This document shows, one piece after another, positions 8,997-50,019 of a stretch of 51,828 bases of DNA (positions are counted from its first letter, which is position 1; every line of letters begins with the position of its first letter). The stretch comes from an uncultured Oscillatoriales cyanobacterium. GTDB lineage: Bacteria > Cyanobacteriota > Cyanobacteriia > Cyanobacteriales > Microcoleaceae. The translations under genes and the position numbers were made by a program. The stretch spans positions 1 to 51,828 of the forward strand of contig CAITND010000049.1 of assembly GCA_903893625.1 (NCBI GenBank). Direction: 5' to 3'. The notes under the pieces were generated by a model, which saw only the letters and a program-made list of their open reading frames with translations, searched no databases and was not told the origin of the DNA.

Positions 8997-9081
8997 GTTG
9001 TCTTTCCTAGCTGATGGAATATCAAAAAGCAAGCTTATCTCTGATTCAATTGAATTGATTATAAACTTGCTTGAAGCAGCT

Positions 9082-9786: not shown

Positions 9787-9865
9787 GATTTCTTCAGATT
9801 TAATTAATTTGAACATTCAGAGAATTAATCCTCTGGATGAATTATAAATGAAAAAGCCAAATCTT

Positions 9866-13036: not shown

Positions 13037-13042
13037 ACCTGT

Positions 13043-13663: not shown

Positions 13664-13667
13664 GAGG

Positions 13668-14378: not shown

Positions 14379-14544
14379 TTACTTAGAATGGGGATTTTTT
14401 ATCATCATAAATTTTTTTGAGCTAATTTCAGCTAGTGTCCTTGCCGAAAAATATAGGATATTTCGCTGCATCAACATCCGTCTCTCTGACAAATGCTGAT
14501 TAGATTAACATTCAGTTGATTTTCTCTTGGCACTCAGCGAATAG

Positions 14545-15147
14545 TTAGCCATAGGATGTAACAATTTCTGCTAAACCGTTCACACTAACACCGTTGCCAA
14601 TTGCAGCCAATTTCCAATCATCGTTGTGCTTGTATAATTCAGCCATGAGCATTCCGGTCATACCTTTGTACTCAGATCCTGATAGGTTATACCGAGCCAG
14701 TTCTTGATTGTTGGACATATTAACCAAGCGCACAAAGGCATTTTTTACCTGTCCGAAATCTTGTTTGCGAGCTATACAATCGTAGATATTAACCGTGAAA
14801 ATCAGTTTTGTAATCTGTGATGGGATCAGAGATAAATCCACAATGATTTGTTCATCATCTCCCTCTCCTGTACCCGTGAGATTATCCCCCAGATGGGTAA
14901 TTGCTCCTGAACGGTGGTTGAGATTGCCAAAGTAAATCACATTAGCTATATCATTGACTTTGCCATCAGCATCTAAACAGATTATGGAGGCATCAAGATC
15001 GTAGTCTGGACTATTGCTGAAAGCACCAAATAAACCACCACCCGTTTTTTTGACCACATCCCAGCCTAGTCCGCAAATCAGTTTTTTGAGTCCTGGTGCT
15101 TCTTTAGAAAGCGAGATGCGTTGCCCTTTTTGTAAATTAATTCCCAT
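14545..15147 (-). CDS. terD: TerD family protein, copy 1
   Basis: A 200-residue TerD/CABP1-type protein, one of the Ca2+-binding proteins of tellurite- and stress-resistance clusters. Family motifs are GINLQKGQRISL at the N-terminus, the acidic SPDYDLDASIICLDADGK, and GDNLTGTGEGDDEQIIVDL in the middle, whose acidic side chains bind calcium. It starts 12 bases after the stop of a second TerD gene at 15160-15735 and is surely cotranscribed. No TerC, TerB or TerZ is nearby, so this is a partial ter set. Role in tellurite resistance is not implied; membrane-associated stress signalling is the broader family idea. Confidence 0.9.
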   Translation of the reverse strand: MGINLQKGQRISLSKEAPGLKKLICGLGWDVVKKTGGGLFGAFSNSPDYDLDASIICLDADGKVNDIANVIYFGNLNHRSGAITHLGDNLTGTGEGDDEQIIVDLSLIPSQITKLIFTVNIYDCIARKQDFGQVKNAFVRLVNMSNNQELARYNLSGSEYKGMTGMLMAELYKHNDDWKLAAIGNGVSVNGLAEIVTSYG

Positions 15148-15159
15148 TGGTTTTGCCTT

Positions 15160-15735
15160 TTAGCTATAGCGATCAAGTAATGTTTGTAAACCTCCTTGAT
15201 AACCTGCCCCCACTGCATTCAGACGCCACTCTCCGTCTTTACGGTAGAGTTCAGCCATAATTAACGCGGTCTCAATTGAATAGTCTTCAACCAGGTCATA
15301 ACGGACAACTTCTTGTTTTGTCTGGGCATTTACGATCCGCACAAAAGCATTTTGCACTTGTCCAAAGTTCTGATGCCGTTGTTGTGCTTCGTGGATGGTC
15401 ACAGTCACAATAATTTTTTGGATGTCAGCAGGGATTTTTTGGAGGTTGATTTTGACAACTTCATCATCACCTTCACCCACACCCGTAAGGTTATCTCCGG
15501 TATGCTGAACCGATTGATCAGGGTCGGGACTGGTGAGATTGTTGTAAAAAATAAAGTGATTATCCGAAATCAGTTTTTCATTGGCACCCAGCAGAAACAA
15601 GGATGAGTCTAGGTCAAAGTCGGAACCTGTGTCTGTAACTTTAACGTCCCATCCTAGTCCTACGAATATCTCGGTTAATCCCGGTGCGATCTTGTCGAGA
15701 GATACGCGCTGCCCTTTGGTAAGTGAAACTCCCAT
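15160..15735 (-). CDS. terD: TerD family protein, copy 2
   Basis: A 191-residue TerD-domain protein with GVSLTKGQRVSLDK, SDFDLDSSLFLLGANEK and GDNLTGVGEGDDEVVKINL, all typical. It is first of the two TerD genes (12-base gap) and is a diverged paralogue of its neighbour rather than a recent duplicate. The start ATG 15735 fits the family N-terminus exactly. Upstream, 15736-15910 is gene-free and probably carries the promoter of the TerD pair. Confidence 0.9.
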   Translation of the reverse strand: MGVSLTKGQRVSLDKIAPGLTEIFVGLGWDVKVTDTGSDFDLDSSLFLLGANEKLISDNHFIFYNNLTSPDPDQSVQHTGDNLTGVGEGDDEVVKINLQKIPADIQKIIVTVTIHEAQQRHQNFGQVQNAFVRIVNAQTKQEVVRYDLVEDYSIETALIMAELYRKDGEWRLNAVGAGYQGGLQTLLDRYS

Positions 15736-15910
15736 GATTCAGTTTTCCTCTGTATTAGATTAGTGATCGATAAGACTGTATACGGAATTATAGATGACCT
15801 ATGGTCTATAAGTCAAGATCGACAGAGTAATTATAAAAGTAAAAACCTTTTGATAGTAGTAGTTAGAGGTGCTATAGTCCGCAAAAAATACCACTGTGGA
15901 TCAAGAAGAT

Positions 15911-16732
15911 TTAATCTTTAATAATTTGGATAAATTCTTTTAATATTTGTTCATAGCGATCGCCTGCCACTTCAATAACATCATTATGATCAGCCCCTTC
16001 CACCCAAAAAGACAATTTAGGAGTATTTATCGCTGCAAATAAACGTTGTCCATGACTAAACGGAATCACTTGATCAACGGTTCCATGAATCACTAAAACC
16101 GGAGCTTTAATTAAAGGAATTTTGCTCAGATTGGCAAACTTATCAAAAGGATATAAAGGAAAATCAATTTTGACTCGAAAGGTGCTAATAAATGTACTTT
16201 CTAAAACTAAACCCCCCACAGGTTGACGAGAGGCTAAATCAACCGATGGCCCCCCACCAACTGAACGACCATAAATAATAATCTGATGCGGTGGAATTTT
16301 TAACTGTTGTGTAAGATAATTATAAGCAGCATCAATTGCTTGATAAGCTCCCTGTTCTGAAGGTTTTCCTTCACTGGTTCCATAGCCGGGATAATCATAG
16401 GAAAAAACCGCAAACCCCATCTGACGAAATCGTTCTAATAAAAAGCGATTATCCCCTAAATCTTCAGCATTTCCATGACTGTAAAGAATGGTATATTTAG
16501 CTTTGGGGTTAGGTAAATATAACGCTGTAATATTCACACCTGGTGCTGTTTTTAGGGTTAGCAATTCTGGAGTCAGTTGATAACTGGAAGGTTGAGGAAC
16601 AAAAATCAAGTGTTCTGAATAGAAGTACGCCCAAACCCCAACAGCGACATAGAGAATTATCAGAAAACGGATCATGCGTTTCAGGGAAAACTCACCAATA
16701 ATAAAGCGTTTGATCACAGTCTGGCGGTTCAT
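15911..16732 (-). CDS. Membrane-anchored alpha/beta hydrolase
   Basis: A 273-residue alpha/beta-hydrolase of the ABHD17/BEM46-like group. The nucleophile elbow is IYGRSVGGGPS, the oxyanion-side motif LYSHGNAEDLGDN, the acid lies in VIHGTVDQVIPFSHG and the histidine in EGADHNDVI. Residues around 20-38 (MIRFLIILYVAVGVWAYFY) form one membrane helix, so the catalytic domain is probably anchored, perhaps facing the periplasm. Family members are esterases or acyl-thioesterases; substrate unknown. It stands alone, divergent from gcvH. Confidence 0.88.
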   Translation of the reverse strand: MNRQTVIKRFIIGEFSLKRMIRFLIILYVAVGVWAYFYSEHLIFVPQPSSYQLTPELLTLKTAPGVNITALYLPNPKAKYTILYSHGNAEDLGDNRFLLERFRQMGFAVFSYDYPGYGTSEGKPSEQGAYQAIDAAYNYLTQQLKIPPHQIIIYGRSVGGGPSVDLASRQPVGGLVLESTFISTFRVKIDFPLYPFDKFANLSKIPLIKAPVLVIHGTVDQVIPFSHGQRLFAAINTPKLSFWVEGADHNDVIEVAGDRYEQILKEFIQIIKD

Positions 16733-16829
16733 GAAGATTTTTAGATGACAAAGCTGTTTTTATTCTAATTTTGTAGTTTAATAGATTGGGTGAACAATTA
16801 ATAGAGTTAAGGAATTGTGAGGAATCACT

Positions 16830-17216
16830 ATGGCAGACTATCCTGAAGACCTGAGATATTTAGATAGCCACGAATATGTCAGACTTGATGGCGAAATTGC
16901 CACCATTGGTATTACGAGCTTTGCTGTGAGGGAACTCGGAGATATCGTGTTTGTGGAATTACCGAGTGTAGGGACTCAGGTTTCTAAAGGTGACGCTTGT
17001 GGAACAATTGAGTCTGTGAAAGCTGTGGCAGAATTGTATGCACCGATAAGCGCTACAGTGATTGAATGCAATACGACCCTTGAAGATTCCCCTGAAATTA
17101 TATGTGATGATCCCTATGGAGAAGGATGGTTAATCAAAGTTAAAGTTGATAACCTGAGTGATTTAGATGATACCTTATCCGTAGAACAATATCAAGCCTT
17201 AGTTGAAGGTTTTTAA
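16830..17216 (+). CDS. gcvH: Glycine cleavage system H protein
   Basis: A 128-residue lipoyl carrier of the glycine cleavage complex, which shuttles the aminomethyl group between the P, T and L proteins and so takes part in photorespiratory glycine breakdown. The lipoylation motif is GTIESVKAVAELYAP with K64 as acceptor. The start is supported by GAGGAA upstream of ATG 16830. Length is normal. gcvP and gcvT are not adjacent. Confidence 0.96.
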   Translation: MADYPEDLRYLDSHEYVRLDGEIATIGITSFAVRELGDIVFVELPSVGTQVSKGDACGTIESVKAVAELYAPISATVIECNTTLEDSPEIICDDPYGEGWLIKVKVDNLSDLDDTLSVEQYQALVEGF

Positions 17217-17280
17217 CAGAGGGTTTTGGGTTTTAGGTGTGCTCAAAGTCTTAATAAAAAATTGAATCAAAAAATATTTA

Positions 17281-17831
17281 TGTTCAATTTATCCACTCTA
17301 TCAGTTCCCGAAAACATCACGTTTGAGCAAGGAATGGAAATTACTCAAACACTGTTGAATAAAATCGAAGAAAAACAGTTATTTGAGGCTGAAGTTGAAA
17401 CTGTAATCGCCCAGTTAGTGAAAACTCAAAATGGGGCAAGAGGATTTTTTGTGACCTATTTAACTGATCCTCGCCCCTGCTGTGATCAACCCACTGCTGC
17501 GATTATTCAAGGGTTAAGAACCTCTCCAGAAATCATATCAGAATTATTAGTAAAAAATGTAGCGATGTCCTCCGCAATGGCAGTGTATCATGGTCGGCAA
17601 AATAATTTAGAAATGGAGCAGAGTTCACAACGGGTTTCTCAACGGTCTGCGGATTTAATTCAACTGTTGAATTTACCGATTTTGCGATCGCTTGTTCAAC
17701 AACTATTAGACAGTGCTAAAACCGGAGAAGGAACTTATCAAGAATTTTTAGAACGTTGGGGATATGATTTAGAACAACTGTCGGCTATAGTTAAGGCTTT
17801 AGAACCATTGTTATCCTACAATTGTGGGTAA
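17281..17831 (+). CDS. Conserved-looking protein of unknown function (183 aa)
   Basis: I do not recognise a family. From ATG 17281 it is a soluble, mainly helical protein of 183 residues; the frame stays open upstream to about 17226, but that part reads like non-coding sequence. A notable segment is FFVTYLTDPRPCCDQPT, followed by two helical stretches (SQRVSQRSADLIQLL and ILRSLVQQLLDSAK). It follows gcvH by 64 bases in the same direction and may be cotranscribed with it, but nothing ties it to glycine metabolism. A palindromic repeat lies just downstream. Confidence 0.65.
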
Positions 17832-17841
17832 TACCAATAAA

Positions 17842-17869
17842 GTAGAGACGTTATATATAACGTCTCTAC
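17842..17869. repeat. 28-nt perfect palindrome (GTAGAGACG family)
   Basis: A perfect 28-base palindrome with outer arms GTAGAGACG / CGTCTCTAC, 11 bases after a stop codon. The same outer arms recur at 25615-25642, 38705-38732 and, degenerated, 34406-34433. It may act as a transcript-end hairpin here. Confidence 0.75.
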
Positions 17870-17981
17870 AAGGTTTCTTTAACTCTTTATATTTTATATT
17901 TCTTAAACTAACTAACCTTGACAAATCAATAAAATTGAGATAAAAATCTTTTATTCTATTTAAGTTACAACAAATCATCCT

Positions 17982-19058
17982 ATGGACTCCAACCCACCTC
18001 TCAAAATCCAAGGCTGTTTAGGGGACGTTACCATTGAACAGGATCATGTTCGTTTGAAAGGATGGGTGATATCCATCACCGGGAAACCGATAGCAGGCTT
18101 TAAGCTAATCATTGGCGATCAAGAAATTACCCAATTTAAAATTGAAAACAACCTGCCTAGCCCCGATGTTTATAAACTATTTCCCACCTTGCCTAACTCT
18201 GATCAAGCTCGATTTTTGATTTATATTCCTTTAGAGGTTATTGCCCCGGAGCAATTTAATCATTTAGTACAATTAATTCCTCTAGTTAATGGAGAAGAAG
18301 CAGAAATTTTATTTAATTTATTAGAATCTAGTCTTCCGGTTCCCGAAAAAGAAGATCGGGTAGGAGTAGGAGGCAGTTTTAAATTTGTTGCCTGTGATTT
18401 TTTGGGTCATTTTATTAATAAAGCGCAATTAAAACCCAATGAATTTATTTTAGATGCGGGATGTGGCGTCGGACGTATGGCTTATTCTCTTGCCTATTAT
18501 TTAGATGATACTGCCCGTTATGAAGGGTTTGATATTGTTGAAAAATGGATTAATTGGAGTCAATCTGTTATTCATCAACATCGACCTAATTTTAATTTTA
18601 AGTGGGCAAATATTTATAATAAACGCTATAATACAGAAGGAACAATTAAAGTAGAAGATTATAGTTTTCCCTATCCTGATGAACAATTTGATTTTGTTTT
18701 TTTAACTTCTGTATTTACTCATTTATATGCTAATGCCGTTCAGAATTATCTGAAAGAAGTTTATCGAGTTCTTAAACCTGGAGGACGGTGTTTATGTACA
18801 TTATTTTTATTAAATGAAGAATCAGAAGCATTGATTAAGGAGGGAAAAAGTTCTCAAAATTTAATCCATGAAATTGAAGATTCATTTTGTTCAGATTTGG
18901 AAATTCCTGAAGCTTCAATGGGTCATCGAGAAACTTCAGTCATGCAGTGGGTGGAAGCATTAGGTTTTACAGTTTCAGCTAAATATTATGGATTATGGTG
19001 TGGACGAACTCCCGGCACTAGCTACCAAGATATGTTAATCTTGAAAAAACCGGAGTAA
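17982..19058 (+). CDS. SAM-dependent methyltransferase with N-terminal beta domain
   Basis: A 358-residue protein. Residues about 8-115 form a beta-rich module (LKGWVISITGKPIAGFKLII), of the sort found attached to glycosyltransferases and methyltransferases acting on surface glycans. From residue 130 there is a class I methyltransferase: motif I ILDAGCGVGRMAYSL, then YEGFDIVEKWINWS (acidic motif II), FPYPDEQFDFVFLTSVFTHL (motif IV) and EVYRVLKPGGRCLCTLF (post-motif). Substrate unknown; the linked module makes a cell-surface or lipid-linked glycan target plausible. It stands alone, with no clear operon partner. Confidence 0.83.
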   Translation: MDSNPPLKIQGCLGDVTIEQDHVRLKGWVISITGKPIAGFKLIIGDQEITQFKIENNLPSPDVYKLFPTLPNSDQARFLIYIPLEVIAPEQFNHLVQLIPLVNGEEAEILFNLLESSLPVPEKEDRVGVGGSFKFVACDFLGHFINKAQLKPNEFILDAGCGVGRMAYSLAYYLDDTARYEGFDIVEKWINWSQSVIHQHRPNFNFKWANIYNKRYNTEGTIKVEDYSFPYPDEQFDFVFLTSVFTHLYANAVQNYLKEVYRVLKPGGRCLCTLFLLNEESEALIKEGKSSQNLIHEIEDSFCSDLEIPEASMGHRETSVMQWVEALGFTVSAKYYGLWCGRTPGTSYQDMLILKKPE

Positions 19059-19183
19059 TTCAGATCAATTATTTTGTCGATATCTATTTTATATAGACAG
19101 AGTTTTAATCAAACCTAAATATAGAGGTTATAATTATGGATTAAAAGCCTTAGCTATCTTTCAATAAACTATTAAATTATTAA

Positions 19184-20065
19184 ATGATTATGCCACCTAT
19201 TCCAGTTACTAAAGTCAAACTTGGATACACTCCACAGTCAGAAGACACGAGCATTGATGTAGATGTGCTGATGTTTCAACTCTTGCGGCAACTGACACCC
19301 CAGCAGAAAGCTCAACGAGTTCGCCACTTTAATCAAGCCACTCGAAAATTGACTTTAACCGGAATTAAAAACCAGTATCCCAATGCTTCTTTATCCTGGG
19401 TTCGTCAAGAATTGATCCGAAGGTGTTTAGGTCAAGAATGGATAGAAATTTTAGAGTTAAAAACAAAAATATCTCAGACAGAGGAAAAATTTATGGTTAT
19501 AGATCCCCTTGAATTAGCTGAACAAATTGCTACAATTTTTGAAACCTTAAATATTCCCTATTTGGTAGGTGGATCGGTCGCAAGTTCTCTCTTAGGAGAA
19601 AGTCGCTCTACACAAGATTTAGATTTAGTCATCAGTATTTCACTTTCAAAAGCACAGCAACTTATTCGAGTCATGGAGGCAGAATTTTATATTAGTGAAT
19701 CGGCTGTTGTAGAAGCTGTGATAGCAAAAAGGTCTTTTAATATTATTAATTTAGCGTCAATGGAAAAAGTTGATATCTTTGTCCTTGGAGATGATGCTTT
19801 TTCTCGTTCTAAAATGAGTCGTCGTCAAATGTATAGGACTGAATCTGAAAAAGGCATTTATATCTATTCAGCCGAGGATATTATTCTACAAAAGTTGTGC
19901 TGGTATAAACTTTCTGCCACAGAATCACAAAAACAGTGGAGAGATGTCTTGGGAGTTTTGAAAGTGCAAGGAGAACATCTTGACTTTAACTATCTCACTC
20001 AATGGGCTAATACTCTCAACATTAAAACTCTTTTAGAGTTAGCTTTAAAACAAGCTGGATTATAG
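19184..20065 (+). CDS. Nucleotidyltransferase-fold protein with N-terminal extension
   Basis: A 293-residue protein. Residues from about 105 on form a minimal nucleotidyltransferase domain: LVGGSVASSLLGESR, then STQDLDLVIS with the DxD pair, and KVDIFVLGDD as third acid. The first 95 residues contain LRQLTPQQKAQRVRHFN and a helical WVRQELIRRCLGQEWIEIL. My recollection is that such an N-terminal piece often exists as a separate small gene just upstream of such nucleotidyltransferase genes in cyanobacteria, so this may be a fusion of a two-gene module. Methionine 103 (MVIDPLELAEQ) could be an internal start for the separate product. Possible AbiEii-like or MNT-like toxin-antitoxin role; not established. 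Confidence 0.75.
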   Translation: MIMPPIPVTKVKLGYTPQSEDTSIDVDVLMFQLLRQLTPQQKAQRVRHFNQATRKLTLTGIKNQYPNASLSWVRQELIRRCLGQEWIEILELKTKISQTEEKFMVIDPLELAEQIATIFETLNIPYLVGGSVASSLLGESRSTQDLDLVISISLSKAQQLIRVMEAEFYISESAVVEAVIAKRSFNIINLASMEKVDIFVLGDDAFSRSKMSRRQMYRTESEKGIYIYSAEDIILQKLCWYKLSATESQKQWRDVLGVLKVQGEHLDFNYLTQWANTLNIKTLLELALKQAGL

Positions 20066-40497: not shown

Positions 40498-41205
40498 ATG
40501 TCATCAACACCTTCTATAGATTCCTCTGCTTCCGTTTCTTCTACGACTGAAACAGTTGAAAAAACCCGCTTCCTCTTGACATTATGGGCAATGAGTTGTA
40601 CCGATGGCGAGGTCAAAAAAAGTGCCTTGACCAGTAAAGTTAAGCAAAAACGCAAGGGGAAAAAGGTTGGTGTTTCTAAAACTCTTTACGACGAACTGCA
40701 AGCGGCGGATGTAATCAAAATTTATAAGCAAAATCAAACGCCTATGGTATCTCTCACCGATACCGGAAAACAAATGTTAATCGATTCGTTAACAAATCCT
40801 GACTTTGTGTTTGATGCAACGGTTGTGGCGGCTCGGTTAGCAAATGGGTTAATTGCGTTAATTCGAGAACTGCATCAAGGAGGAATTCCTCTAACATCTG
40901 TTAAACAAGTTACCATCGCTTCTTATGAGGAGTTTAAAGCGATCGCCCTTCAAGTGTATGATCAATTAAATAAAGATTATAATTACGATAACTTAGTCCC
41001 GATTTATCGCATTCGTCGGACTATCGGTGATCAAGTTACTCGTTCACAGTTCAATGAATGGATGTTAGAGATGCAAGCTAATGATATTTTTCAATTGCTT
41101 GGGGGAGAAGTTCTAAACGTCACGGGTGATCAAGTCGAAGATTCTATTCTTCCCCCGGTTGGAAAGCTGCGGTTTTTTGCCCAACGTTTGACTGCTGAAA
41201 ACTAA
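40498..41205 (+). CDS. Winged-helix-like protein of defence module A (A1)
   Basis: No named family recognised. From ATG 40498 the product has 235 residues: a Ser/Thr-rich tail, then an N-terminal winged-helix-like domain (LYDELQAADVIKIYKQN, then VSLTDTGKQMLIDSL) and a helical C-terminal domain ending in a second winged-helix-like segment (SQFNEWMLEMQANDIFQLLGGE). It is clearly related to B1 at 47713: KTLYDELQAADVIK aligns with DQIYDALQTQELIK, LTDTGKQMLIDSL with LTEQGLQALVTNL, and SYEEFKAI with SFDEFQEK. Each is directly followed by an ATPase gene, so it probably acts as a DNA- or target-recognition subunit. The start at 40465 (TTG) is less likely. Confidence 0.75.
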   Translation: MSSTPSIDSSASVSSTTETVEKTRFLLTLWAMSCTDGEVKKSALTSKVKQKRKGKKVGVSKTLYDELQAADVIKIYKQNQTPMVSLTDTGKQMLIDSLTNPDFVFDATVVAARLANGLIALIRELHQGGIPLTSVKQVTIASYEEFKAIALQVYDQLNKDYNYDNLVPIYRIRRTIGDQVTRSQFNEWMLEMQANDIFQLLGGEVLNVTGDQVEDSILPPVGKLRFFAQRLTAEN

Positions 41206-41244
41206 TCTCAAACCCTTTAATTGTTTTTACTGACCTTAACTCCT

Positions 41245-43230
41245 ATGAATACAGTATCCTATTCTACCCTAGAAGAACTCAAAACAGCAATTTCCAGCTA
41301 TAACCCCTTTAGTCGAGTTGCTGTTGATAATGTTAATAGCATTCGCAAGGAAGAACCCTATTTAAAATCGCTCAATACTTCTATCTTTGAGAAAGTTATA
41401 GATGTTATCCGTCAGGTTAAACACAGTTCTGATGGTAAAGATAAAGTTGCTACCTTAGTGATAACAGGTGATCCAGGTGCAGGCAAAACACAACTGGTTA
41501 AACGAATTCGTCGCCATTGCCTTGATCAAGATCTAGCTATTTTGATTTATGCTAATCTGGCTAAGTGCAGCAGTTCTGATTTATTGAAATCTCAATTTCT
41601 GGAAATGTTTGTTAAGGAATTAGCTCTTACAGAACGGGATGAAAATAAAAACTTTAAACCGAATCAATGGCAAGAAATTGCAACTGCAATAATTAATAGT
41701 GCTGCGCCGAGTGGTAAAAGTTATGCAACGGTTAACTTGGTAAATAATTTTGATCAATTTTATGCAAAAGCTAAAACCAAAAATCAAAATATAATTCAGC
41801 AATTAAGTCAAGGTATCAAGAAAGTTTATCCTGATTTTGATGCTTATACGGTTAGAGCAATTTTATGGACACTTTCACAAACTTATGGCGATTTTGCGGT
41901 GGAATGGTTAGCTGGAAATGCCTTAGACTCTGAAACCGCTCAAGGGATGGGATTACCCAGTTATACAAATCAGAATATCACAGAAAAAAATAGTGCTGCG
42001 TTTAGTAACTTATTAAAAATTTTGTCTTTAGTAAGCCAGTATAAAACTCTTGTGATCTGTTTTGATGAATTTGATGAGAAAGTCTTAGAGACGGGTCAAA
42101 CTAACGCACAACTTATTACAGAGTTTATTAAAGATCTGTATGATAATCTTGAGCAATCAAACTCTAGTAAAGGTGTATCGATTATCTCGTTAATGTTTAC
42201 GTCCATCTGGACACAACAAATTAAAGGTTTTTTTGGAGGATATCACTCTCGTACAGATTCTCTAATTGATCGAATGTCTACGACTACAAAGGGAGAACCA
42301 CTATCCTTAGAACATATAAATGGTAAATCAATCTTAGAGTTAGTCAGTTTTTGGCTAGAGGAGTTTTTATATAAACCTCGTCAGTTAAAACCCCATGATT
42401 CAGTTTACCCCTTTACAGTTAACCAATTAGAGGAAATTGGAAAAAACAGACCAACCATTCGAGAAACTTTAGACTGGTGTTATAAAGAATATAAGAAAAT
42501 TCAAGAAACCATTGTCAAAGATCCGAAAGAGCAATATCAGTTAGCTCGACAACAAATGAATCAGCCAGATATTACCGATTATTTAGAAGATAATGATTTT
42601 CTAGCGAATACATTAAAATTCGGTTTTGAGCAGTTAATTAATCAACCCTTAGAAGGGATCACTGCAAGTGGAGAAAAGTTGAAAAAAGTGATCATTGAGT
42701 CTGTAGAAAGTATTGATAATAAATGGGTAAAATTTAAGCTTAATGGAATTGAAAATGAAAGCAAAAGGTTTATAATCGGTGTTGCAGTTATCCAAAATCA
42801 AGGTGCTACTTCGGTTAAAGCGGGTTTGAAAGAATTAGTTAATTATTCTAAATTTGGATTAACTCGTGGCTGTATGGTCAGAAGTCCTGATAAGAAAATC
42901 GGCAGAAATACCCAAGCTTATCAACTTTTAGAACAGTTGACTCAACGCGGAGGAGAGCAAGCACCTTTACGCCCTGAAGAAATTAAACCTTTAATCGAAA
43001 TCTATTCAATTTATCAAAATTGTCAGAGTTTCGGATTAACTGAGGAACAAGTTAAGGAATTTTCTCAAGGAGAAATTGCAGATAATCCCTTATTGCAAGA
43101 AATCCTTAGTGATCCTTCTGGTAAAATTGATGAAGAAACTGTGGATAGTGACGAATTAATTTTGCTTTTTGATCAATTCTTTGAGCAAGAAGAACAATCT
43201 GATGAAGACATTAATGATTTATTGAGTTAA
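41245..43230 (+). CDS. P-loop ATPase of defence module A (A2)
   Basis: A 661-residue AAA+/STAND-type ATPase. Walker A is GDPGAGKTQ (residues 75-83) and Walker B LVICFDEFDEK (about 270-280); MFTSIWTQQ follows like a sensor-1 strand, and NRPTIRETLDWCYKEY resembles a sensor-2/winged-helix junction of ORC-like ATPases. The C-terminal 200 residues hold a segment (RFIIGVAVIQNQGATSVKAGLKELVNY) that lies where module B's ATPase has its nuclease-like core (SCVARAFGEAKNYELLSGHL), but without the ExK pair; it may be a degenerate nuclease fold. The gene lies 39 bases after A1 and 23 before A3, so the three are one operon. A TTG at 41221 would add 8 residues. Confidence 0.85.
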   Translation: MNTVSYSTLEELKTAISSYNPFSRVAVDNVNSIRKEEPYLKSLNTSIFEKVIDVIRQVKHSSDGKDKVATLVITGDPGAGKTQLVKRIRRHCLDQDLAILIYANLAKCSSSDLLKSQFLEMFVKELALTERDENKNFKPNQWQEIATAIINSAAPSGKSYATVNLVNNFDQFYAKAKTKNQNIIQQLSQGIKKVYPDFDAYTVRAILWTLSQTYGDFAVEWLAGNALDSETAQGMGLPSYTNQNITEKNSAAFSNLLKILSLVSQYKTLVICFDEFDEKVLETGQTNAQLITEFIKDLYDNLEQSNSSKGVSIISLMFTSIWTQQIKGFFGGYHSRTDSLIDRMSTTTKGEPLSLEHINGKSILELVSFWLEEFLYKPRQLKPHDSVYPFTVNQLEEIGKNRPTIRETLDWCYKEYKKIQETIVKDPKEQYQLARQQMNQPDITDYLEDNDFLANTLKFGFEQLINQPLEGITASGEKLKKVIIESVESIDNKWVKFKLNGIENESKRFIIGVAVIQNQGATSVKAGLKELVNYSKFGLTRGCMVRSPDKKIGRNTQAYQLLEQLTQRGGEQAPLRPEEIKPLIEIYSIYQNCQSFGLTEEQVKEFSQGEIADNPLLQEILSDPSGKIDEETVDSDELILLFDQFFEQEEQSDEDINDLLS

Positions 43231-43253
43231 TCAACATTAATCAAGTAAAGCCT

Positions 43254-44726
43254 ATGTTTTTTAAACAAGCTCTCAGTTTACCTGCTCCTGAAGTTTCAGC
43301 ATTAACTCAAGGTAGAATGATTCTAGTTTTACCTTCACTCTTTCTAGGAATTGGTCAACCTTTTTTTCTCTATCCGGCTGAAACTTCGGGTGTAGCTATT
43401 TCCTTAGAAAAAATTTATCGTTCTAGCTTTTTACCTGATGCTAAAATAGCATTAAATCAAGCTCAAAATAATCGAGTTTTAATTAAAGCTTGGGCTAAAT
43501 GTGAACTTTGTCATCGCCTTTATGATCATCCAGAGTTATTAGAAAAATTAGCTCAATTAACCATCTGGACAGGAGAAGGACTAAGAGCAAAAATTGAGGA
43601 AAAAAATCTTAAAAATTTGGCTTATTTACGAGTTTATAAACTTCCTGAACCTTTTGAAATAGAAGCGATTGCAGAAAGTTCGGCTAAAATTGGTAAATTT
43701 TTAGGTTTGTCTATTTCTGCAAATGTTAGTGAATCTATCCCGATTTTAGATGATATAATATTTGCCAAACGTCAAGCATCAATTAAAAACCTTGAATCGC
43801 CAGAACATCCTGAATTAGAAGAATTAGAAACTGCGATCGCCCAATTCACAACTAACCCTTTATCTCAGGAAGAACAACTCGGTTTAAACCTTTTACAAGC
43901 CAATATTCATCAACTCTTAGGTTGGAAAACTTCACAACCTGCCAATTTAACCGATGATTCCAGCTTAAATTGGATCAATGAAATAGCAGCATTAGGAAAC
44001 GGAAGTAAAGAACTAGATGAAGGCAAAAGCAACTATCAAGCCGGAACAGACTTTGAGAATATTGTCAAAAAAAGTTTAGAATTTTTAGGTTTTACTATAG
44101 ACTATGCTCATAAAGGAGGTGCAGGAGGATTAGATTTATTTTGTTCAAAACCATACCCCTTAGTAGGAGAATGTAAAGCTGGGAGAAAAATCCCTAATCC
44201 TACAGTCGTTCAACTCTTGAATTTAGGAACACTGCGTTTAAAAGATGAGAACCTGTTTAAACAAGCAGCTAAATTAATTATAGGCCCCGGTGAATTAACT
44301 CCAGCAGTGCGTGATGCAGCAAAAGTACATGGTATGGCAATTATTAATCCGATGACATTAGAAAAACTTGTCAAACTCCAAGCTCAATATCCCGGTTCAG
44401 TTAACTTAATTGAACTCAAAAACTATTTACAAAAAGGTCAAATGGATGATAACATAGATGAATATATTAAAATCGTGTTTAATCGTTTAAAATTGCGATC
44501 GCATATTATTCAACTGTTTAAACAACTCAATCAACCGATCAATTTAGATAATTTGATCGGGGCTTATTCCTTCTCTAACCCCCCACAACCCTTAGAACGA
44601 GAACAATTAAAAGAAATCCTGATAGAACTCTCCTCACCCCTAACGGGTTACTTAGGACGCACACCCGATGAGCGCTTTTACTTCCTAAGAGAACTCATAG
44701 TAGACCAAAGCCAAAGTTTTGATTAA
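43254..44726 (+). CDS. DUF1802 plus PD-(D/E)XK nuclease of module A (A3)
   Basis: A 490-residue two-part protein. Residues 1-140 match DUF1802-type sequence (FFLYPAETSG, VLIKAWAKCE, LTIWTGEGLRAKI, LRVYKLPEPFEIEA). Residues about 260-380 form a restriction-endonuclease-like domain: GTDFENIVKKSLEFLGF, then GGAGGLDLFCSKPYPLVGECKAGR with the D-(x)n-ExK catalytic set (D in GLDLF, E-C-K), and VVQLLNLG. It ends with a helical C-terminus (about 410-490) with a possible winged helix. It is third in the A1-A2-A3 operon. DUF1802 has no known function as far as I know; the nuclease fits a DNA-targeting effector. Confidence 0.8.
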   Translation: MFFKQALSLPAPEVSALTQGRMILVLPSLFLGIGQPFFLYPAETSGVAISLEKIYRSSFLPDAKIALNQAQNNRVLIKAWAKCELCHRLYDHPELLEKLAQLTIWTGEGLRAKIEEKNLKNLAYLRVYKLPEPFEIEAIAESSAKIGKFLGLSISANVSESIPILDDIIFAKRQASIKNLESPEHPELEELETAIAQFTTNPLSQEEQLGLNLLQANIHQLLGWKTSQPANLTDDSSLNWINEIAALGNGSKELDEGKSNYQAGTDFENIVKKSLEFLGFTIDYAHKGGAGGLDLFCSKPYPLVGECKAGRKIPNPTVVQLLNLGTLRLKDENLFKQAAKLIIGPGELTPAVRDAAKVHGMAIINPMTLEKLVKLQAQYPGSVNLIELKNYLQKGQMDDNIDEYIKIVFNRLKLRSHIIQLFKQLNQPINLDNLIGAYSFSNPPQPLEREQLKEILIELSSPLTGYLGRTPDERFYFLRELIVDQSQSFD

Positions 44727-44767
44727 AATTTGTAAAGCAGTTTGACGTCAAATCCATTGGCTTAACC

Positions 44768-45394
44768 ATGAACTACGCCAGAACATCCAATAACTTCCCC
44801 ATTAACGTTGATTTTCTCCCCCCTGACGTCATCCCCTTTAACGGAAAAATCGGCATGACCTACGCCCCCGGAAAATCCCATCAAGGGATGCACGTTCTCT
44901 GGGATCGGAGCTTATATCACGACCTAGACCGCCTGCGCTACTTCTATCACACCGATGTTTTGGTATCCCTAATTGAACCCCACGAATTTCATAAAGTTCA
45001 AATTCCCACCCTCTTCCCCGAAGCTCAAGCTAGAGGAATGGAAACAATTTGGTTTCCCATTCCTGACTTAAAAGTTCCGACCTCAATGGAAGGCGTCATT
45101 AACCTAGTCCCCCAAATTCTCGACCGAGCCAAAGCAGGTAAAACCGTTGTCGTTCACTGTATGGGGGGATTTGGACGCACCGGAACTATTGTGTCTTGCT
45201 GTTTAGTGACCTTGGGTTATACTCCAGAAAATGCGATCGCTATTGTCCGCCATACCCGTGAATATTGCGTTGAAACCACCGAACAAGAAGAATATGTCAG
45301 CTTATTTTCCCAAGCCTGGAAGCAGTCATCAATAGACATTCTTAGGAAAATTAACGAGGAATTAGAAAATACATCTTGTGGAAAAGCAAGATGA
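44768..45394 (+). CDS. Dual-specificity/tyrosine phosphatase (CDKN3-like)
   Basis: A 208-residue cysteine phosphatase. The P-loop is VVHCMGGFGRTGTIVSCCL with C131 nucleophile and R137, and the general acid is D100 in PIPDLKVP, so the active site is complete. It is most like the cyclin-dependent-kinase-inhibitor-3-type phosphatases found in bacteria. Its stop overlaps the next gene's start (ATGA, 45391-45394), tightly coupling it to a restriction endonuclease, and it follows A3 by 41 bases. A role as a dephosphorylating signal or effector within the island is possible; a stray housekeeping gene is the alternative. Confidence 0.88.
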   Translation: MNYARTSNNFPINVDFLPPDVIPFNGKIGMTYAPGKSHQGMHVLWDRSLYHDLDRLRYFYHTDVLVSLIEPHEFHKVQIPTLFPEAQARGMETIWFPIPDLKVPTSMEGVINLVPQILDRAKAGKTVVVHCMGGFGRTGTIVSCCLVTLGYTPENAIAIVRHTREYCVETTEQEEYVSLFSQAWKQSSIDILRKINEELENTSCGKAR

Positions 45395-46308
45395 ATACAC
45401 AGGAGGTAATCAGATTAGCGTCTCATTATTTAGATGGCTTGTCTGGACATATTTTTGATCTGTTGGATATTTCTAAACCGATTTCTGTAGATGCCGCAGT
45501 TAATCTATCTAAAGTCATTTCAAAACTTTCGCCGCTCCTGGGAAATTTGATTGAATTTAATACAGTAGAATTTTTGAATAAACAAAACGAATTTTCCGAG
45601 TTTGGCAAGTGGCAACGGCAAGATCCTGGTTTTCCAGATACTATTTTTGTTGGAAACGTTCAACCCATGCCAGGTTTAGAAATTAAAGCTTGGTTTCCCC
45701 TGGCAACGGAAATAACAGCGCGTTTCAAAGATAGTCAAAATCACTTCCAATTTGACCAGACTTATGTTGCAATATTGGCATGGCTACCGGAAAATATTAT
45801 TTATGGTAAGCCTCGAATTATTGATGTCTGTGTTGTTTCTGGTTTATCTGTCGCTGCTGCTAGAGATAATCATTATCATAACCCACCGGATTATCTTGTT
45901 TTAGAGCCAGAGGATACGACTCAGAGAACAGCAAATTTACAACAAACTAACACCAATGGCTATAAATTTCAAGGTTCTACTCAGGAACTTTTAGAAGCGC
46001 AAAAAATCGTAGAATTATGGGGAAGTGAAGGAAGAATTTACAAACCAACTAGAGAATATCAATTACAGTTACGCGAATTACTCACCCGCTACAAATATAG
46101 ACTCGATACGAATTTTGCCAAGATGGATCGAATTGAACATCCAGGTATTGAGCAATTTAAACAGCGTGTTTTTAACATTGAAATGTGTGATATGAAGATC
46201 GGGGAATGGAATAGACTTTTATCCAGCCGGAAAGAGGAAAGAATTAAGCAAGCTTTACAAAGTTATTTGGATATTAAAGAAGAGAGTATTGATAAAATTC
46301 TGGATTAA
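45391..46308 (+). CDS. Type II-like restriction endonuclease, PD-(D/E)XK
   Basis: A 305-residue protein. Residues 77-113 carry a textbook PD-(D/E)XK core: QDPGFPDTIFVG (P82-D83), then MPGLEIKAWFPLATEITARF with E97-x-K99. Basic, helical sequence surrounds it. The gene faces and overlaps by 35 bases at its 3' end the DNA methyltransferase gene on the other strand, the usual Type II pairing. Recognition site unknown; families such as XcyI/Cfr9I come to mind but I cannot confirm. The TTG at 45376 gives a longer form, but ATG 45391 with the ATGA overlap is preferred. Translation is coupled to the phosphatase upstream. Confidence 0.8.
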   Translation: MNTQEVIRLASHYLDGLSGHIFDLLDISKPISVDAAVNLSKVISKLSPLLGNLIEFNTVEFLNKQNEFSEFGKWQRQDPGFPDTIFVGNVQPMPGLEIKAWFPLATEITARFKDSQNHFQFDQTYVAILAWLPENIIYGKPRIIDVCVVSGLSVAAARDNHYHNPPDYLVLEPEDTTQRTANLQQTNTNGYKFQGSTQELLEAQKIVELWGSEGRIYKPTREYQLQLRELLTRYKYRLDTNFAKMDRIEHPGIEQFKQRVFNIEMCDMKIGEWNRLLSSRKEERIKQALQSYLDIKEESIDKILD

Positions 46309-47383
46309 ATCTCTCTGTACCCCAGTAAAAATAGTCAGGGTCAATTTCACAGGAATAGGCTTTTCTGTTTAACTGACGTGCTGCCAGAGAAGCACTAAAC
46401 AAACCTCCAAACGGTTCCCAGATAATATCATTTTCATCACTGGAAGATTGAATAATCAGACTCATAAGATCAAGGGGTTTTTGATTGAGATGTAACGCTT
46501 TACCAGATTTGGTTTTAATTCGTTCATTTCCTCGTAAAGCCGAACGTTCCCAAACATTTGTAAACCCATGAGGACATTGAAATTTTGAGCGCATTTTGCT
46601 CCATTCTTGTTTCGTCAAAGAGCGTTGATTATCTAAAGAAAAATAGGGTTTACCTTCTAAATTACCCTTTTCATTGGCATAATTAACGAGACGTTCAAAC
46701 ATTTCTGGCGGAGGAAAATACCATAAATGTCCTTGATCAAAATATTTTCTCGTTGCTGCATCTGCGACACCGCAAGCATCATTTGCGCGTTTAAGGGGGA
46801 GTCCTGAACGTTTCCATTCTTTCAGCAACCATGTTTTTAAAGGCAAATTGTTAATTGTTACTTCTCTAACATATTGAACACAAACTTCTGTAACAACTGG
46901 AAACCTACGAATTTTTTCAGTATTAACATTACCTGCAATATGACCTTTGCCTTTATTCCAAATATTGCAATTTACATAACGCCATCCGTATTTTTCCAGA
47001 ATGGGATGAACAACAGCCCAACCTATTTCTGAATTCCAAAACCAAAGGGTAGTACAAGGTATCGCTGCTTTTGACCAAGCTTGAATATGAGGTTCATACC
47101 ACTGAGGTAAATCCAAATGATCTGATGTATCTCCTTCAAATCCTAAAACACCATAAGCGCCATCTGAAACAATAACAGTCGGTTGTTCCCATTGATCATA
47201 ATGTTCGAGGCTATCACCTAAAAACAACGTAACAAATTCATCATTCCATTGAGAAAAGCTCGGACTTGCATCTAGTTTAACGACTTTTCCACGACCGACT
47301 GTACTCGTTGCTTTGGGTTTTAAAGTGTTGTTGGGGGGTTGATTAGGTAAAGTCATTAACTCAAATGCTTTTTTAGAATTCAT
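46274..47383 (-). CDS. DNA N4/N6 methyltransferase (restriction-modification partner)
   Basis: A 369-residue amino-methyltransferase. Motif IV reads SDGAYG (residues 73-78), in the position of the DPPY-type catalytic loop, and precedes motif I, EPFGGLFSASLAA (about 323-335); the end CEIDPDYFYWGTERF is a typical SAM/D-loop and beta-class tail. The order IV...I points to the beta class (N4-cytosine or N6-adenine). NQKPLDLMSLIIQSSSDEND is a familiar sequence between X and I. It should protect the sites cut by the convergent endonuclease gene. Start ATG 47383 (an in-frame ATG follows at 47356). Confidence 0.87.
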   Translation of the reverse strand: MNSKKAFELMTLPNQPPNNTLKPKATSTVGRGKVVKLDASPSFSQWNDEFVTLFLGDSLEHYDQWEQPTVIVSDGAYGVLGFEGDTSDHLDLPQWYEPHIQAWSKAAIPCTTLWFWNSEIGWAVVHPILEKYGWRYVNCNIWNKGKGHIAGNVNTEKIRRFPVVTEVCVQYVREVTINNLPLKTWLLKEWKRSGLPLKRANDACGVADAATRKYFDQGHLWYFPPPEMFERLVNYANEKGNLEGKPYFSLDNQRSLTKQEWSKMRSKFQCPHGFTNVWERSALRGNERIKTKSGKALHLNQKPLDLMSLIIQSSSDENDIIWEPFGGLFSASLAARQLNRKAYSCEIDPDYFYWGTERFNPEFYQYSLL

Positions 47384-47712
47384 AAAAATTGTTACTCTTA
47401 GTAAAAGAGAGGAAAATGTATCAACAATTCTATGTTAGAATCAATAACATCAGTTTTATTTAAACACGATCTTCCCTAGCTATGCCTTCTAGTACAATTA
47501 CATTTTAACCAGCAACCTTTCCTTGCATCCCACATTAAGCTAATGGCCTAGATACTATGGCTTACGGGCTTATGCTTGCTTTTACTACACAGAGTCTTTC
47601 TTTGGCAGTACAATAGCAGGCAGAACGAGGACAAGATGCTGATGATATCGCATGAGCCTTTGGATTCGTATAGTGATCATGTTGAGTTAAAATTCGGCAT
47701 AGAGAGGACAAT
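47384..47712. other. Gap between methyltransferase and module B
   Basis: A 329-base region, divergent between the methyltransferase (leftward) and B1 (rightward). It must hold both promoters. An ORF that overlaps the start of B1 (47576-47785) is a shadow. GAGAGGACA precedes ATG 47713. No repeat or relic recognised. Confidence 0.5.
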
Positions 47713-48288
47713 ATGGCTAAACTTAGTACAGAGCAACTCATCTATCTACTTTATGCCCGTGCATATACCGCAAAAGATACGGTAACAAAAGGCACGGTCA
47801 AGTCCTATTTGGCGAGGGAGTGGAAGGAGAAAGCAGATCAAATCTATGATGCCTTACAAACACAGGAACTAATTAAGCAAGCAAGTAAAGGGCGTTTTTA
47901 CCTGACCGAGCAAGGTTTACAAGCTCTTGTCACTAATTTAGCTACTACCGATTACGAATTTAGTTCTGTTAAAGGCCCTAAAGTATTAAACACTTTATTG
48001 ATTTGTATTAAACAGGCTGCTAATTTTCATTCTCAAGTTAATTCTTTTGATGAAATGAGTTTTGATGAATTTCAGGAGAAATTCAAAACGCTTTATCTTA
48101 AAGTGAGGCAGAAGCAGGAACTCCGGGGTGTCGTTGCTATTCATAGCAAAGAACTTTGCGATGAGTTTATGGAAATAAACCCTATTTCACCAGAAAAATT
48201 AAGTAAATATTTTGATTTGCTTAAGTCAAATGGTAACATTTTTGCTGTAAATGAAAAAGGTCATGAATTAATTCAATGGGTGGAGTAG
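47713..48288 (+). CDS. Winged-helix-like protein of defence module B (B1)
   Basis: A 191-residue homologue of A1 (40498-41205), with the winged-helix-like N-terminal domain (IYDALQTQELIKQASKGRFY, then LTEQGLQALVTNL), a linker, a helical segment (SFDEFQEKFKTLYLKV) and a C-terminal winged-helix-like end (SPEKLSKYFDLLKSNGNIF, then NEKGHELIQW). It lacks the Ser/Thr-rich N-terminal extension of A1. It ends 3 bases before the ATPase-nuclease gene, so the pair is translationally coupled. Likely recognition or adaptor subunit. I do not recognise a named family. Start ATG 47713 with GAGG seven bases upstream. Confidence 0.78.
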   Translation: MAKLSTEQLIYLLYARAYTAKDTVTKGTVKSYLAREWKEKADQIYDALQTQELIKQASKGRFYLTEQGLQALVTNLATTDYEFSSVKGPKVLNTLLICIKQAANFHSQVNSFDEMSFDEFQEKFKTLYLKVRQKQELRGVVAIHSKELCDEFMEINPISPEKLSKYFDLLKSNGNIFAVNEKGHELIQWVE

Positions 48289-48291
48289 AAT

Positions 48292-50019
48292 ATGCCTGAA
48301 GATGCTGGAAAAAAGAAGCTTATAAAAGATTTATTGATAGCAGTTCAAAGAGGTGAAGGATTTATTGAAGATATTTGGATTGAGCGTGTTATTAAACTTC
48401 CAGGAACAGAAGGTGAGGGATCTACTGCACGAAGTTTATCAGGAAGAAAAGTCAATAATATTACTCAACTTCTTGAAGACGATCTTCAAAATTGTTTTGA
48501 TGACGGATATTTTACTTTTAGATTTATTTCGGCTATAAAGGGAAGTGGTAAAACCTCTTTGCTAACTTATTTGCACCAGTTAACCAAGACCAAGCCAACC
48601 TACGAAAAACTTTCTGTTGTCTGCCGTTTTCCTCTTTCTGATGTACGGTCAATAGCTATTCCTTATAATTTTAGTATAAAATTTTACTGTTATATTCTTG
48701 CTCAAACTTTTTGGGAACTGTTAAATAATACAAATATTTTAATTAAAAACGGAGCTAAGAATATACTGAGTGATTATCTAGAAAACAATGAATTGAGTGA
48801 ACTAATAATAGCTACTAAACCAAAGCCTTTTTGTGCTAAATTTAATAGGTACTTAGCCAATACAGGAGTAATTTTTGAAGACTTATTGTTTGAATTGATT
48901 TATGAAGTATCTAGGATAGAACCACAATTTACTTTTGCCTATTTAGTTGATGAGTTAGATTCCTTAGAAAAATACCCTAATGACCTTCAGGAAACTAGAT
49001 CTATCATTAAAGCTCTAATTAAGAGAGTATCTCAACAATTTAGATCGAAAATCCGTCTCCTAATTTATATTGTAGGAACATCAGAAAATATAAAAAGTTT
49101 TATTGATGAAGATTCTGTACTAGAAAGCCTTGTTAGTCGTTGGGTTATTAATCTAAATACAGGATATGGAAATGAATTTGAAATGATAAGATCTAAAATT
49201 GATGCGCGTATAGAAGGAGCCTTTAAAGGATATAAAAATTTTTCTCAAGCCTGGCAGGACATTAAGAATATACCTTTAAATCCTGCTCAAAACTTAAGAA
49301 GCTTTTGTCAAGAATACGCTACAGCAGTTATAGAGATACATGAAAAGCATTTTAGAGAAGAACCTGAAAAAAGTTTTGAAGGAAATGCACGTCAGTTAGT
49401 GGAAGCGCAATGTAGGCAGAAATGGCAAACCCATCTCAACAAAAAATCATATACTTTATCTTCAGTTTCCACGACAACTGTACTTGAAGGTCACGCTTTC
49501 GATTGTTATATAGAATTACATCACAACAATTCCTGTGTTGCTAGAGCCTTCGGTGAAGCAAAAAACTATGAACTTTTAAGTGGTCATCTAGAAACTTTTA
49601 ATGAATGGTTAGAAGATGTGAAATTTAAACCTTCAAATACTGATGGTACACCACCTGATCTTGCCTTTATAATTGCTCCTTCGTGTCCTTCTCTTTTGCA
49701 GCGAAAACTAGAGCTTAAAAACATTTGTTTTATAGAGTCTAATAAGGTAGTTACTCCTGTAATCGAGCCTGATGAAACAATAAACATAACTTCGGGTGTG
49801 GATATTAATACTGCTGAAAAAGATTTAATCGTTAATGCTTTTAAGGGAACTGCAATTAAAAAGACAACAATCGATAGGTTAATGCAGTTTAGAAGTAATA
49901 AGAATTATAAAAATTTGGATGAACTAGCTGCTGATTTAAAATTGACTCAAAATGCCAAGCAAAAACTACAAAAAAAGGTTGATGATGGAAAAATTTGCTT
50001 CTCAGCACCCAGTAAATAA
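48292..50019 (+). CDS. ATPase-nuclease-HhH fusion of defence module B (B2)
   Basis: A 575-residue protein with three parts. (1) P-loop ATPase: Walker A AIKGSGKTSL (81-90) and Walker B FAYLVDELDSLEK (215-227), then IYIVGTSENIKSF as sensor-1-like. (2) PD-(D/E)XK-like domain, about 395-485: GHAFDCYIELHH (D404), then FGEAKNYELLSG (E422-x-K424), with PDLAFIIAPS following. (3) helix-hairpin-helix domain, about 500-568: VDINTAEKDLIVNAFKGT and KNLDELAADL, resembling ComEA/T2SK-type HhH that bind DNA. So a motor, a nuclease and a DNA-binding tail are fused. Partner B1 is 3 bases upstream. It parallels A2 (ATPase) plus A3 (nuclease) of module A. Confidence 0.82.
   Translation: MPEDAGKKKLIKDLLIAVQRGEGFIEDIWIERVIKLPGTEGEGSTARSLSGRKVNNITQLLEDDLQNCFDDGYFTFRFISAIKGSGKTSLLTYLHQLTKTKPTYEKLSVVCRFPLSDVRSIAIPYNFSIKFYCYILAQTFWELLNNTNILIKNGAKNILSDYLENNELSELIIATKPKPFCAKFNRYLANTGVIFEDLLFELIYEVSRIEPQFTFAYLVDELDSLEKYPNDLQETRSIIKALIKRVSQQFRSKIRLLIYIVGTSENIKSFIDEDSVLESLVSRWVINLNTGYGNEFEMIRSKIDARIEGAFKGYKNFSQAWQDIKNIPLNPAQNLRSFCQEYATAVIEIHEKHFREEPEKSFEGNARQLVEAQCRQKWQTHLNKKSYTLSSVSTTTVLEGHAFDCYIELHHNNSCVARAFGEAKNYELLSGHLETFNEWLEDVKFKPSNTDGTPPDLAFIIAPSCPSLLQRKLELKNICFIESNKVVTPVIEPDETINITSGVDINTAEKDLIVNAFKGTAIKKTTIDRLMQFRSNKNYKNLDELAADLKLTQNAKQKLQKKVDDGKICFSAPSK

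Follow-up and report, generated by a model that had tools for sequence, protein, structure and literature searches.

A three-gene cassette, module A, was analyzed on a 51,828-nucleotide stretch of DNA from an uncultured Oscillatoriales cyanobacterium (assembly GCA_903893625.1, contig CAITND010000049.1), the whole of which is called the window here. Across related loci, the parts of this cassette reassort largely independently as four modules: the body of the small first protein, A1 (approximately residues 20–195); the A1 tail (approximately residues 200–235) together with the ATPase A2 and, in part, the front of A3; the A3 nuclease domain; and the A3 tail. Judged from the sequences, this reassortment is best explained by recombination. 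Module A is read, with a probability of about 0.6, as a chromosomal, ATP-dependent DNA restriction complex directed against invaders, of the kind that pairs an ORC/Cdc6 ATPase with a restriction endonuclease (REase). A second module, B1-B2, lies farther along the window, and the coordinates of all genes are given in Table 1.

Mosaic structure of module A

The Planktothrix-group loci compared were the window, L052, L053, L087, L110, and L129, the last of which is titled Oscillatoriales only. The window GyrA shares 99% identity with its counterpart in genome G157 and 95–96% with those of four other Planktothrix-group genomes, and the phosphatase, endonuclease, methyltransferase, and glycosyltransferase genes, where present, are 89–99% identical to those of the window. 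A1 of the other five loci is 72–87% identical to the window protein, and A2 is 32–39% identical. A2 falls into three types (L052, L053, and L110; L087 and L129; and the window), with allele types approximately 90% identical within and 35% identical between. The last 35–40 residues of A1 track the A2 type, as the A3 front largely does, and the A3 nuclease groups the window, L087, and L052 against L053, L110, and L129. At the DNA level, the window resembles L052, L053, and L110 up to 41105–41107, inside A1, and again inside A3 from approximately 43268–43402 (weakly) or from 43795–43800, with a patch of approximately 60 bases at 42017 in between; against L087, the resemblance breaks off at 41149 and returns at 43740.

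To compare all A1-A2-A3 triads, 4 identical duplicates were removed from 109 triads and those with a split A2 were left out of the count, leaving 105 triads and 5460 pairs. The A1 body is at least 80% identical in 135 pairs; A2 is at most 45% identical in 49 of these, at least 80% identical in 32, and between these values in 54. In the 52 pairs with A2 at least 80% identical, the A1 tail is also at least 80% identical in 50 and the A3 front at least 75% identical in 39, the A3 nuclease is at most 65% identical in 24 and at least 80% identical in 23, and the A3 tail is at most 65% identical in 26. Spearman correlations were calculated from 487 close pairs and are descriptive, with no tests attached, because triad pairs are not independent. 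Within modules, they reach 0.75–0.87 between thirds of A2, 0.87 between halves of the nuclease, and 0.70 between halves of the A3 tail. Between modules, the A1 tail and A2 correlate at 0.78–0.83, A2 and the A3 front at 0.32–0.55, the nuclease and the A3 tail at 0.13–0.41, A2 and the A1 body at 0.03–0.22, and A2 and the nuclease at −0.04 to 0.03. Because the A1 tail and the A3 front both adjoin A2, physical linkage, and not contact alone, may underlie their inheritance together with it.

Phylogenetic trees were built by a quick method from 40 of the 105 triads, chosen by the authors. In the A1 tree, the six Planktothrix-group rows form a clade with a Shimodaira–Hasegawa-like approximate likelihood ratio test (SH-aLRT) value of 100, and the A2 tree rejects that clade (approximately unbiased (AU) test, 9.6e-11), a result to be read with caution as the window sits on a long branch. 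The A3 front tree places L052, L053, and L110 together (97) and rejects a grouping of L053, L110, and L129 (1.6e-13). The A3 nuclease tree rejects both the L052, L053, and L110 grouping (4.4e-6) and the Planktothrix-group clade (0.0028) and does not reject L053, L110, and L129 (0.20). Modules would be exchanged by recombination at conserved patches, namely residues 161–200 of the A1 alignment and the middle of A3.

The sharp DNA boundary, the discrete types, and the conflicting A3 trees led to the rejection of mere fast evolution as the source of the low A2 identity. It is also unlikely that the swapped A2 genes are separate acquisitions that replaced one another, a gene turnover beside a conserved A1 with no selection for diversity. 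Such turnover would agree with the position of the window A2, which groups on its long branch with A2 from other families, and with the extra A2 copies in L057, L093, L101, and L156, which are a possible source. It agrees poorly with the single full-length A2 in each of the six Planktothrix-group genomes (the next match being a distant ATPase at approximately 24–26% identity or a short stretch), with the 13 of 32 disjoint closest pairs from across the phylum (A1 body at least 80% identical) in which A2 is below 60% identical throughout, and with the internal mosaic of A3. No report of a triad mosaic was found in a survey, mainly of open-access papers, that covered cyanobacterial defence and its allele exchange, DUF1802, and ASCH domains with nucleases.

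Conservation and distribution of the cassettes

Searches for A2 at E ≤ 1e-10 against 291 cyanobacterial genomes identified it in 43, representing 25 of 115 genera. A1, A2, and A3 stand together in 39 of the 45 A2 regions fetched, with A2 split over two frames in four (L046, L068, L079, and L081); of the remainder, contig ends truncate two (L080 and L082) and four carry A2 alone (L069 and L071–L073). A scan for the A3 family in one genome per species, covering 84,980 species, returned 249 relatives among 263 candidate stretches. In the best 80 of these 249, A2 is present in 79 and both A1 and A2 lie upstream in 75; the other five comprise four stretches cut by contig ends (L132, L133, L139, and L141) and L152, with a short A2 and no A1. 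B2 was found in 5 of the 291 genomes, and a profile search of 386 genomes found it in 7. B1 precedes it in six of these seven loci (the window, L083–L085, L180, and L181), and the seventh, L086, is a B2 fragment close to a contig end. Each of the two modules recurs as a unit in other genomes.

The best 80 A3 stretches are all cyanobacterial by title except L164, from a Planctomycetaceae metagenome-assembled genome; its triad is 99–100% identical to that of L162 (Nodosilinea), and a binning error is probable. By A3, Planktothrix records are the closest named loci. G157 and G255 belong to the same genus as the window, and the G255 triad is the same as that in the P. rubescens record L088. Two further arrangements were noted. 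Locus L101 (Oscillatoria sp. PCC 10802) carries a tandem array at 2432–19443 made up of four copies of A2, three of A3 (one truncated where the fetched stretch ends), and two of A1, and a pair of small genes (approximately 105–110 and 120 residues) recurs beside A3 in L045, L055, L061, L068, L074, and L076, with 2–3 copies in L068 and L074.

Domain composition of the module A proteins

A1 gave only weak winged helix-turn-helix (wHTH) matches, chiefly in its N-terminal part, and a sequence search of the PDB with the A1 profile likewise returned weak matches only. Its originally noted similarity to B1 was confirmed both by a single BLASTP comparison (26% identity over 139 columns, E 5e-7) and by comparison of profiles of 41 and 4 rows (probability 97.1, E 7.8e-11, 133 columns). 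When the B1 profile was run over 194 cyanobacterial genomes, its seven matches at E ≤ 1e-4 were three B1 and four A1 genes; the A1 profile matched in 39 of the 194 at E ≤ 1e-3, mostly A1 genes and two B1 genes. One such match, in G034 (L220), was not recovered by the family models. B1 also has sub-threshold NCBIfam matches to anti-phage ProA (0.0057) and to magnesium chelatase.

The A1 family extends beyond the two modules. In a set of relatives termed class C (L212–L216), an A1-like gene of 264–294 residues adjoins an A2-like ATPase in five of five loci. A scan of neighbours for further families, which covered L212 and L213, identified a PD-(D/E)XK-FtsK protein after the A1-like and A2-like genes in both and an additional 3'-5' exonuclease in L213. 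In L219 (5657–9876), an A1 gene is followed by a 1097-residue SNF2 helicase with a weak PLD match in place of A2 and A3, and short proteins that consist of the A1 N-terminus only were found in L217 (5686–5994) and L218 (5790–6095), with neighbours alike in the two genomes.

A2 matches the Pfam family AAA_16 at 4.5e-9, and its Walker A residue Lys-81 (K81) and Walker B residue Asp-274 (D274) are kept in 61 of 61 sequences. Its structural model has a predicted local distance difference test (pLDDT) score of 87.5. The best Foldseek match, and the only one at E ≤ 1e-3, is a DAP3-type chain (7e-4); ORC and Cdc6 chains also match (E 6e-3 and above, probability about 1.00), as do, at higher E than DAP3, RADAR RdrA, a plant NLR, and the restriction enzyme PaqCI (probability 0.99, E 0.05). 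The PDB sequence search with the A2 profile gave weak matches, among them Cdc6 at 0.03. In the model, residues 450–575 follow an alpha-beta-beta-beta-beta-alpha-beta order, which is REase-like, and carry no ExK motif; this combination suggests that the segment is an inactive nuclease domain. Weak PADLOC matches were to mad8 (2.2e-4) and IetA (6.7e-4). A Wadjet/SMC-type identity was rejected on the AAA_16 and ORC-type ATPase matches of A2; among the A1-like proteins of class C, one has a weak match to MksE (0.0016, below cut-off). No relation between A2 and A3 emerged when their profiles were compared. A distant ATPase in a frame of 813–828 residues, 24–26% identical to A2, was also observed in the window genome (G000:C76:8737-9687) and likewise in five Planktothrix-group genomes.

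A3 begins with a DUF1802 domain (residues 6–175), present in 41 of 41 family members, followed by a nuclease domain at approximately residues 258–375. The call of a nuclease in the original prediction is supported by matches to Mrr_cat at E ≤ 0.1 in 26 of the 41 members and by the conservation of Glu-268, Asp-294, Glu-306, and Lys-308 (E268, D294, E306, and K308), which are kept jointly in 41 of 41 members and in 66 of 67 A3 sequences. The exception among the 67 is a second A3 copy in L128 (L128:10833-12281), next to an intact one, in which all four catalytic residues are replaced. The PDB sequence search with the A3 profile returned weak matches only. When the A3 model (pLDDT 85.4) was compared by Foldseek, chains of TRIP4 ASCH or EOLA type took 9 of the first 10 places (E 8e-3 to 0.055, probability 0.84–0.99), and EOLA is taken here to be of ASCH type. 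These matches, at weak E-values, point to an ASCH/PUA-like fold for the A3 front.

Comparison with known systems

The description of module A as novel did not survive comparison with the literature. A single clause of PMC10853773 (Nucleic Acids Res 2024) puts forward, with no experiment attached, a candidate system against invaders in which Orc/Cdc6 genes are coupled to an ASCH-fused REase and a DndG-like triple wHTH protein. Module A resembles this set in gene content: A2 is an ORC/Cdc6-type AAA+ ATPase by its AAA_16, DAP3, ORC, and Cdc6 matches, and A3 is a PD-(D/E)XK REase by its conserved EDEK residues. The neighbourhoods in that article are called mobile, whereas module A is chromosomal and often found at one site. 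The passages of PMC10853773 on ORC/Cdc6 and ASCH-REase genes make no mention of allele reassortment, and its main text contains 0 occurrences of the string "cyanobacteri" and no DUF1802. In the parts of PMC12839542 and PMC12458937 covered here, no such gene set was seen.

The same article calls the wHTH partner of a related HerA/FtsK set rapidly evolving and describes an inactive REase in the ORC/Cdc6 proteins of that set. The class C loci L212 and L213, with A1-like, A2-like, and PD-(D/E)XK-FtsK genes, resemble these HerA/FtsK capture systems (PMC10853773); modules A and B differ in having no HerA/FtsK gene, as no such Pfam match was found in the eight genes of the locus. PMC10853773 also describes prokaryotic relatives of CR-effectors as ORC/Cdc6 NTPases with a C-terminal REase. 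B2 shares this layout of an ATPase followed by a predicted nuclease but differs in its A1-type partner B1 and in a C terminus with a weak helix-hairpin-helix match, and the likeness seen here is one of layout.

The original prediction could not match the locus to BREX, DISARM, Zorya, or Dnd, and no match was found. PglZ and PglX models are absent from the eight genes, the BrxC_BrxD match of A2 (0.042) is below cut-off, and no BREX model is among the listed PADLOC matches of the eight genes. Neither is a DISARM, Zorya, or Dnd model among the listed PADLOC matches, which for the methyltransferase are the best 25 of 35. Type IV modification-dependent restriction, as in McrBC and GmrSD, combines a reader domain, an NTPase, and a PD-(D/E)XK nuclease. 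Module A possibly follows the same logic, but no McrB or GmrSD model is among the matches listed for the genes of the locus. In type I systems, the specificity parts of HsdS are exchanged by recombination at a resident locus. Module A likewise swaps parts at a resident locus, although here it is the ATPase and, separately, the nuclease that are exchanged, and the conserved unit contains no methyltransferase.

Proposed function and alternative explanations

In the proposed mechanism, A1 and the ASCH-like A3 front would read DNA, A2 would assemble on the DNA and switch with ATP, and the A3 nuclease would cut; B1-B2 would be a smaller relative in which ATPase and nuclease form one protein. The conserved gene order and nuclease residues, the fold matches of A2 and A3, the class C pairings, the reassortment, and the restriction–modification pair adjoining module A were counted in favor of this reading. 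Complex formation, DNA reading, DNA cleavage, defence, and a pressure from phages that keeps the allele types are inferred. That the ASCH-like domain reads modified bases, giving a type IV-like mode of working, is a guess with the odds somewhat against it.

Several results weigh against restriction of invaders by a mosaic locus. In family f6, which is the family of G072 and includes G048 (a Dolichospermum record carries the identical triad), A3 is present in 47 of 60 genomes, with a fragment only in G420. In 26 of these 47, the distance from A3 to one particular housekeeping gene is at most 12 kb, which is unlike typical islands. That gene, which we take to be glucose-6-phosphate isomerase, is farther away, on another contig, or not found in the other A3-containing genomes, and the neighbours of the triad recognised in f6 are presumably housekeeping genes as well. 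No match was obtained in searches of plasmids with A2, B2, and A3, in a search of phage records with A3, or in a scan of viral contigs with A2 and B2 that covers close relatives only. For A1, A3, B1, and B2, PADLOC listed no model at E ≤ 1 and no NCBIfam model reached its cut-off, and the A3 model had no Foldseek match at E ≤ 1e-3, EndoMS reaching 0.11 (probability 1.00). As for the mosaic, correlations within modules are weaker between halves of the A3 front (0.50) and of the A1 body (0.43), the A3 front is moderately linked to A2 (0.52), and the A3 front tree does not reject the Planktothrix-group clade (0.48).

The frequent fixed site and the prevalence in f6 would suit a housekeeping complex, in which a DNA-repair or replication nuclease acts on the cell's own DNA and divergence reflects fast evolution with no arms race. 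The presence of EndoMS, a mismatch nuclease, among the fold matches of A3 would suit it too, as would the signal of kinship in the A1 body. This explanation is nevertheless improbable, given that A2 occurs in a minority of the phylum and that discrete allele types and conflicting trees within A3 are unexpected for housekeeping genes. Over 64 f6 species pairs, the Spearman correlation with flank identity is 0.59 for the A1 body, 0.21 for A2, and −0.06 for the nuclease, and flank genes correlate among themselves at 0.49–0.80; among the 45 most similar of these pairs, those with flanking proteins 80–95% identical have A2 at 27–82% identity. Among the 13 f6 genomes that do not contain A3, the flank (presumably mdh-ndhO-mutM-psaE) is in its usual order with no triad in three (L221, L222, and L223) and inverted in L226; in the other nine, the flank was not seen within the fetched stretch. 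A barrier for kin discrimination or DNA uptake, in which allele types label strains and DNA or cells of other types rather than phages are attacked, would suit the several discrete types at related loci within one genus and an exchange of DNA among such hosts, but is less probable still, since a cytosolic nuclease needs DNA to enter the cell.

The mosaic and the resident site fit a restriction locus under diversifying selection. We give even odds to the fuller version of the restriction reading, in which module A is a common bacterial immune locus, often at a fixed position, that acts in the manner of a polymorphic immunity gene. Long-lived alleles of the sensor ATPase, the reader, and the nuclease would persist beyond the limits of species and genera, and recombination at conserved patches would reshuffle them as four modules, the A1 tail being inherited along with its ATPase. 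If so, a restriction-type system would be spread through the cyanobacteria, its natural allele modules would point to the parts that set specificity, and balancing selection on a defence locus resident in bacteria could be tested directly. The free exchange of nuclease and of ATPase would lead one to expect that the two evade separate inhibitors or respond to separate triggers. The joint inheritance of the A1 tail and A2 would point to a physical interface between them, or show simply that they are neighbours. In bloom-forming and filamentous cyanobacteria, the locus might also help to explain why phage resistance differs between strains or why transformation is poor.

Module B, restriction–modification genes, and locus layout

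The two modules had been predicted to share one logic of a winged-helix protein, an ATPase, and a nuclease. Homologous first genes, an ATPase, and a nuclease were found in each; however, the nuclease of B is a prediction and A2 and B2 show no significant similarity (best pairwise E 0.21), their profiles overlapping at Walker A only (22 columns, probability 7). Both match the NCBIfam ATPase family Sll1717 below cut-off (A2, 4.5e-9; B2, 1e-5). The proposed fusion of a nuclease to the B2 ATPase has a motif as its basis (Asp-404 (D404) and Glu-422-Ala-Lys-424 (E422-A-K424)), which is invariant in four of four sequences; no Pfam nuclease model is listed for it at E ≤ 1. The PDB sequence search with the B2 profile gave weak matches only. 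A recent duplication giving rise to A and B was rejected, as neither A2 and B2 nor A3 and B2 are significantly similar and the modules lie approximately 70 kb apart in P. rubescens.

All eight genes were present where originally placed, and the phosphatase, endonuclease, and methyltransferase genes were verified by family matches and coordinates to lie between the modules (Table 1). Earlier starts are possible for A1 (TTG, 40465) and A2 (TTG, 41221), and the ATG starts in Table 1 are reasonable. To the left are probable genes for GyrA and for histone-deacetylase-like and CbiX-like proteins, and to the right, a probable glycosyltransferase-like gene.

Table 1. Genes of modules A and B, the genes between them, and the stretch replaced relative to related loci (window coordinates).
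Feature	Position	Strand	Description
A1, 235 aa	40498..41205	+	winged-helix-type protein
A2	41245..43230	+	ORC/Cdc6-, DAP3-, or STAND-like AAA+ ATPase
A3	43254..44726	+	DUF1802 domain, Mrr-type PD-(D/E)XK nuclease, C-terminal helical domain
Phosphatase gene	44768..45394	+	dual-specificity/tyrosine type, PTP-SAK family
Type II restriction endonuclease	45391..46308	+	PADLOC REase_II 3.2e-44
DNA N6/N4 methyltransferase	46274..47383	-	convergent to and overlapping the endonuclease gene
B1, 191 aa	47713..48288	+	A1 homologue, winged-helix-type (weak matches)
B2	48292..50019	+	P-loop ATPase (GSGKT, DELD) fused to a predicted PD-(D/E)XK nuclease
Replaced stretch	41107..43800	+	from DNA comparison with L052, L053, and L110

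The adjacent REase and DNA methyltransferase genes are predicted to form a type II restriction–modification pair. The suggestion that the modules bracket this pair as one unit was not upheld, and the arrangement appears to be local: L053, L087, L110, and L129 carry all or some of the phosphatase, endonuclease, and methyltransferase genes near module A with no B in the fetched stretch. In the 45 regions L038–L082, a relative of the phosphatase or methyltransferase was found in L053 only, which is of the same genus, and a relative of the endonuclease in none; within L087–L166, the comparison covered the Planktothrix-group loci L087, L110, and L129. The order of the three genes varies within the genus. 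With relatives in 1 of 45 A2 regions and a variable gene order, the pair was rejected as a part of the system. For the endonuclease, phmmer found no PDB relative at E ≤ 0.1. The endonuclease–methyltransferase pair (45391–47383) shares 97–98% identity with its counterparts in L087 and L110, the endonuclease frame in L087 being shorter.

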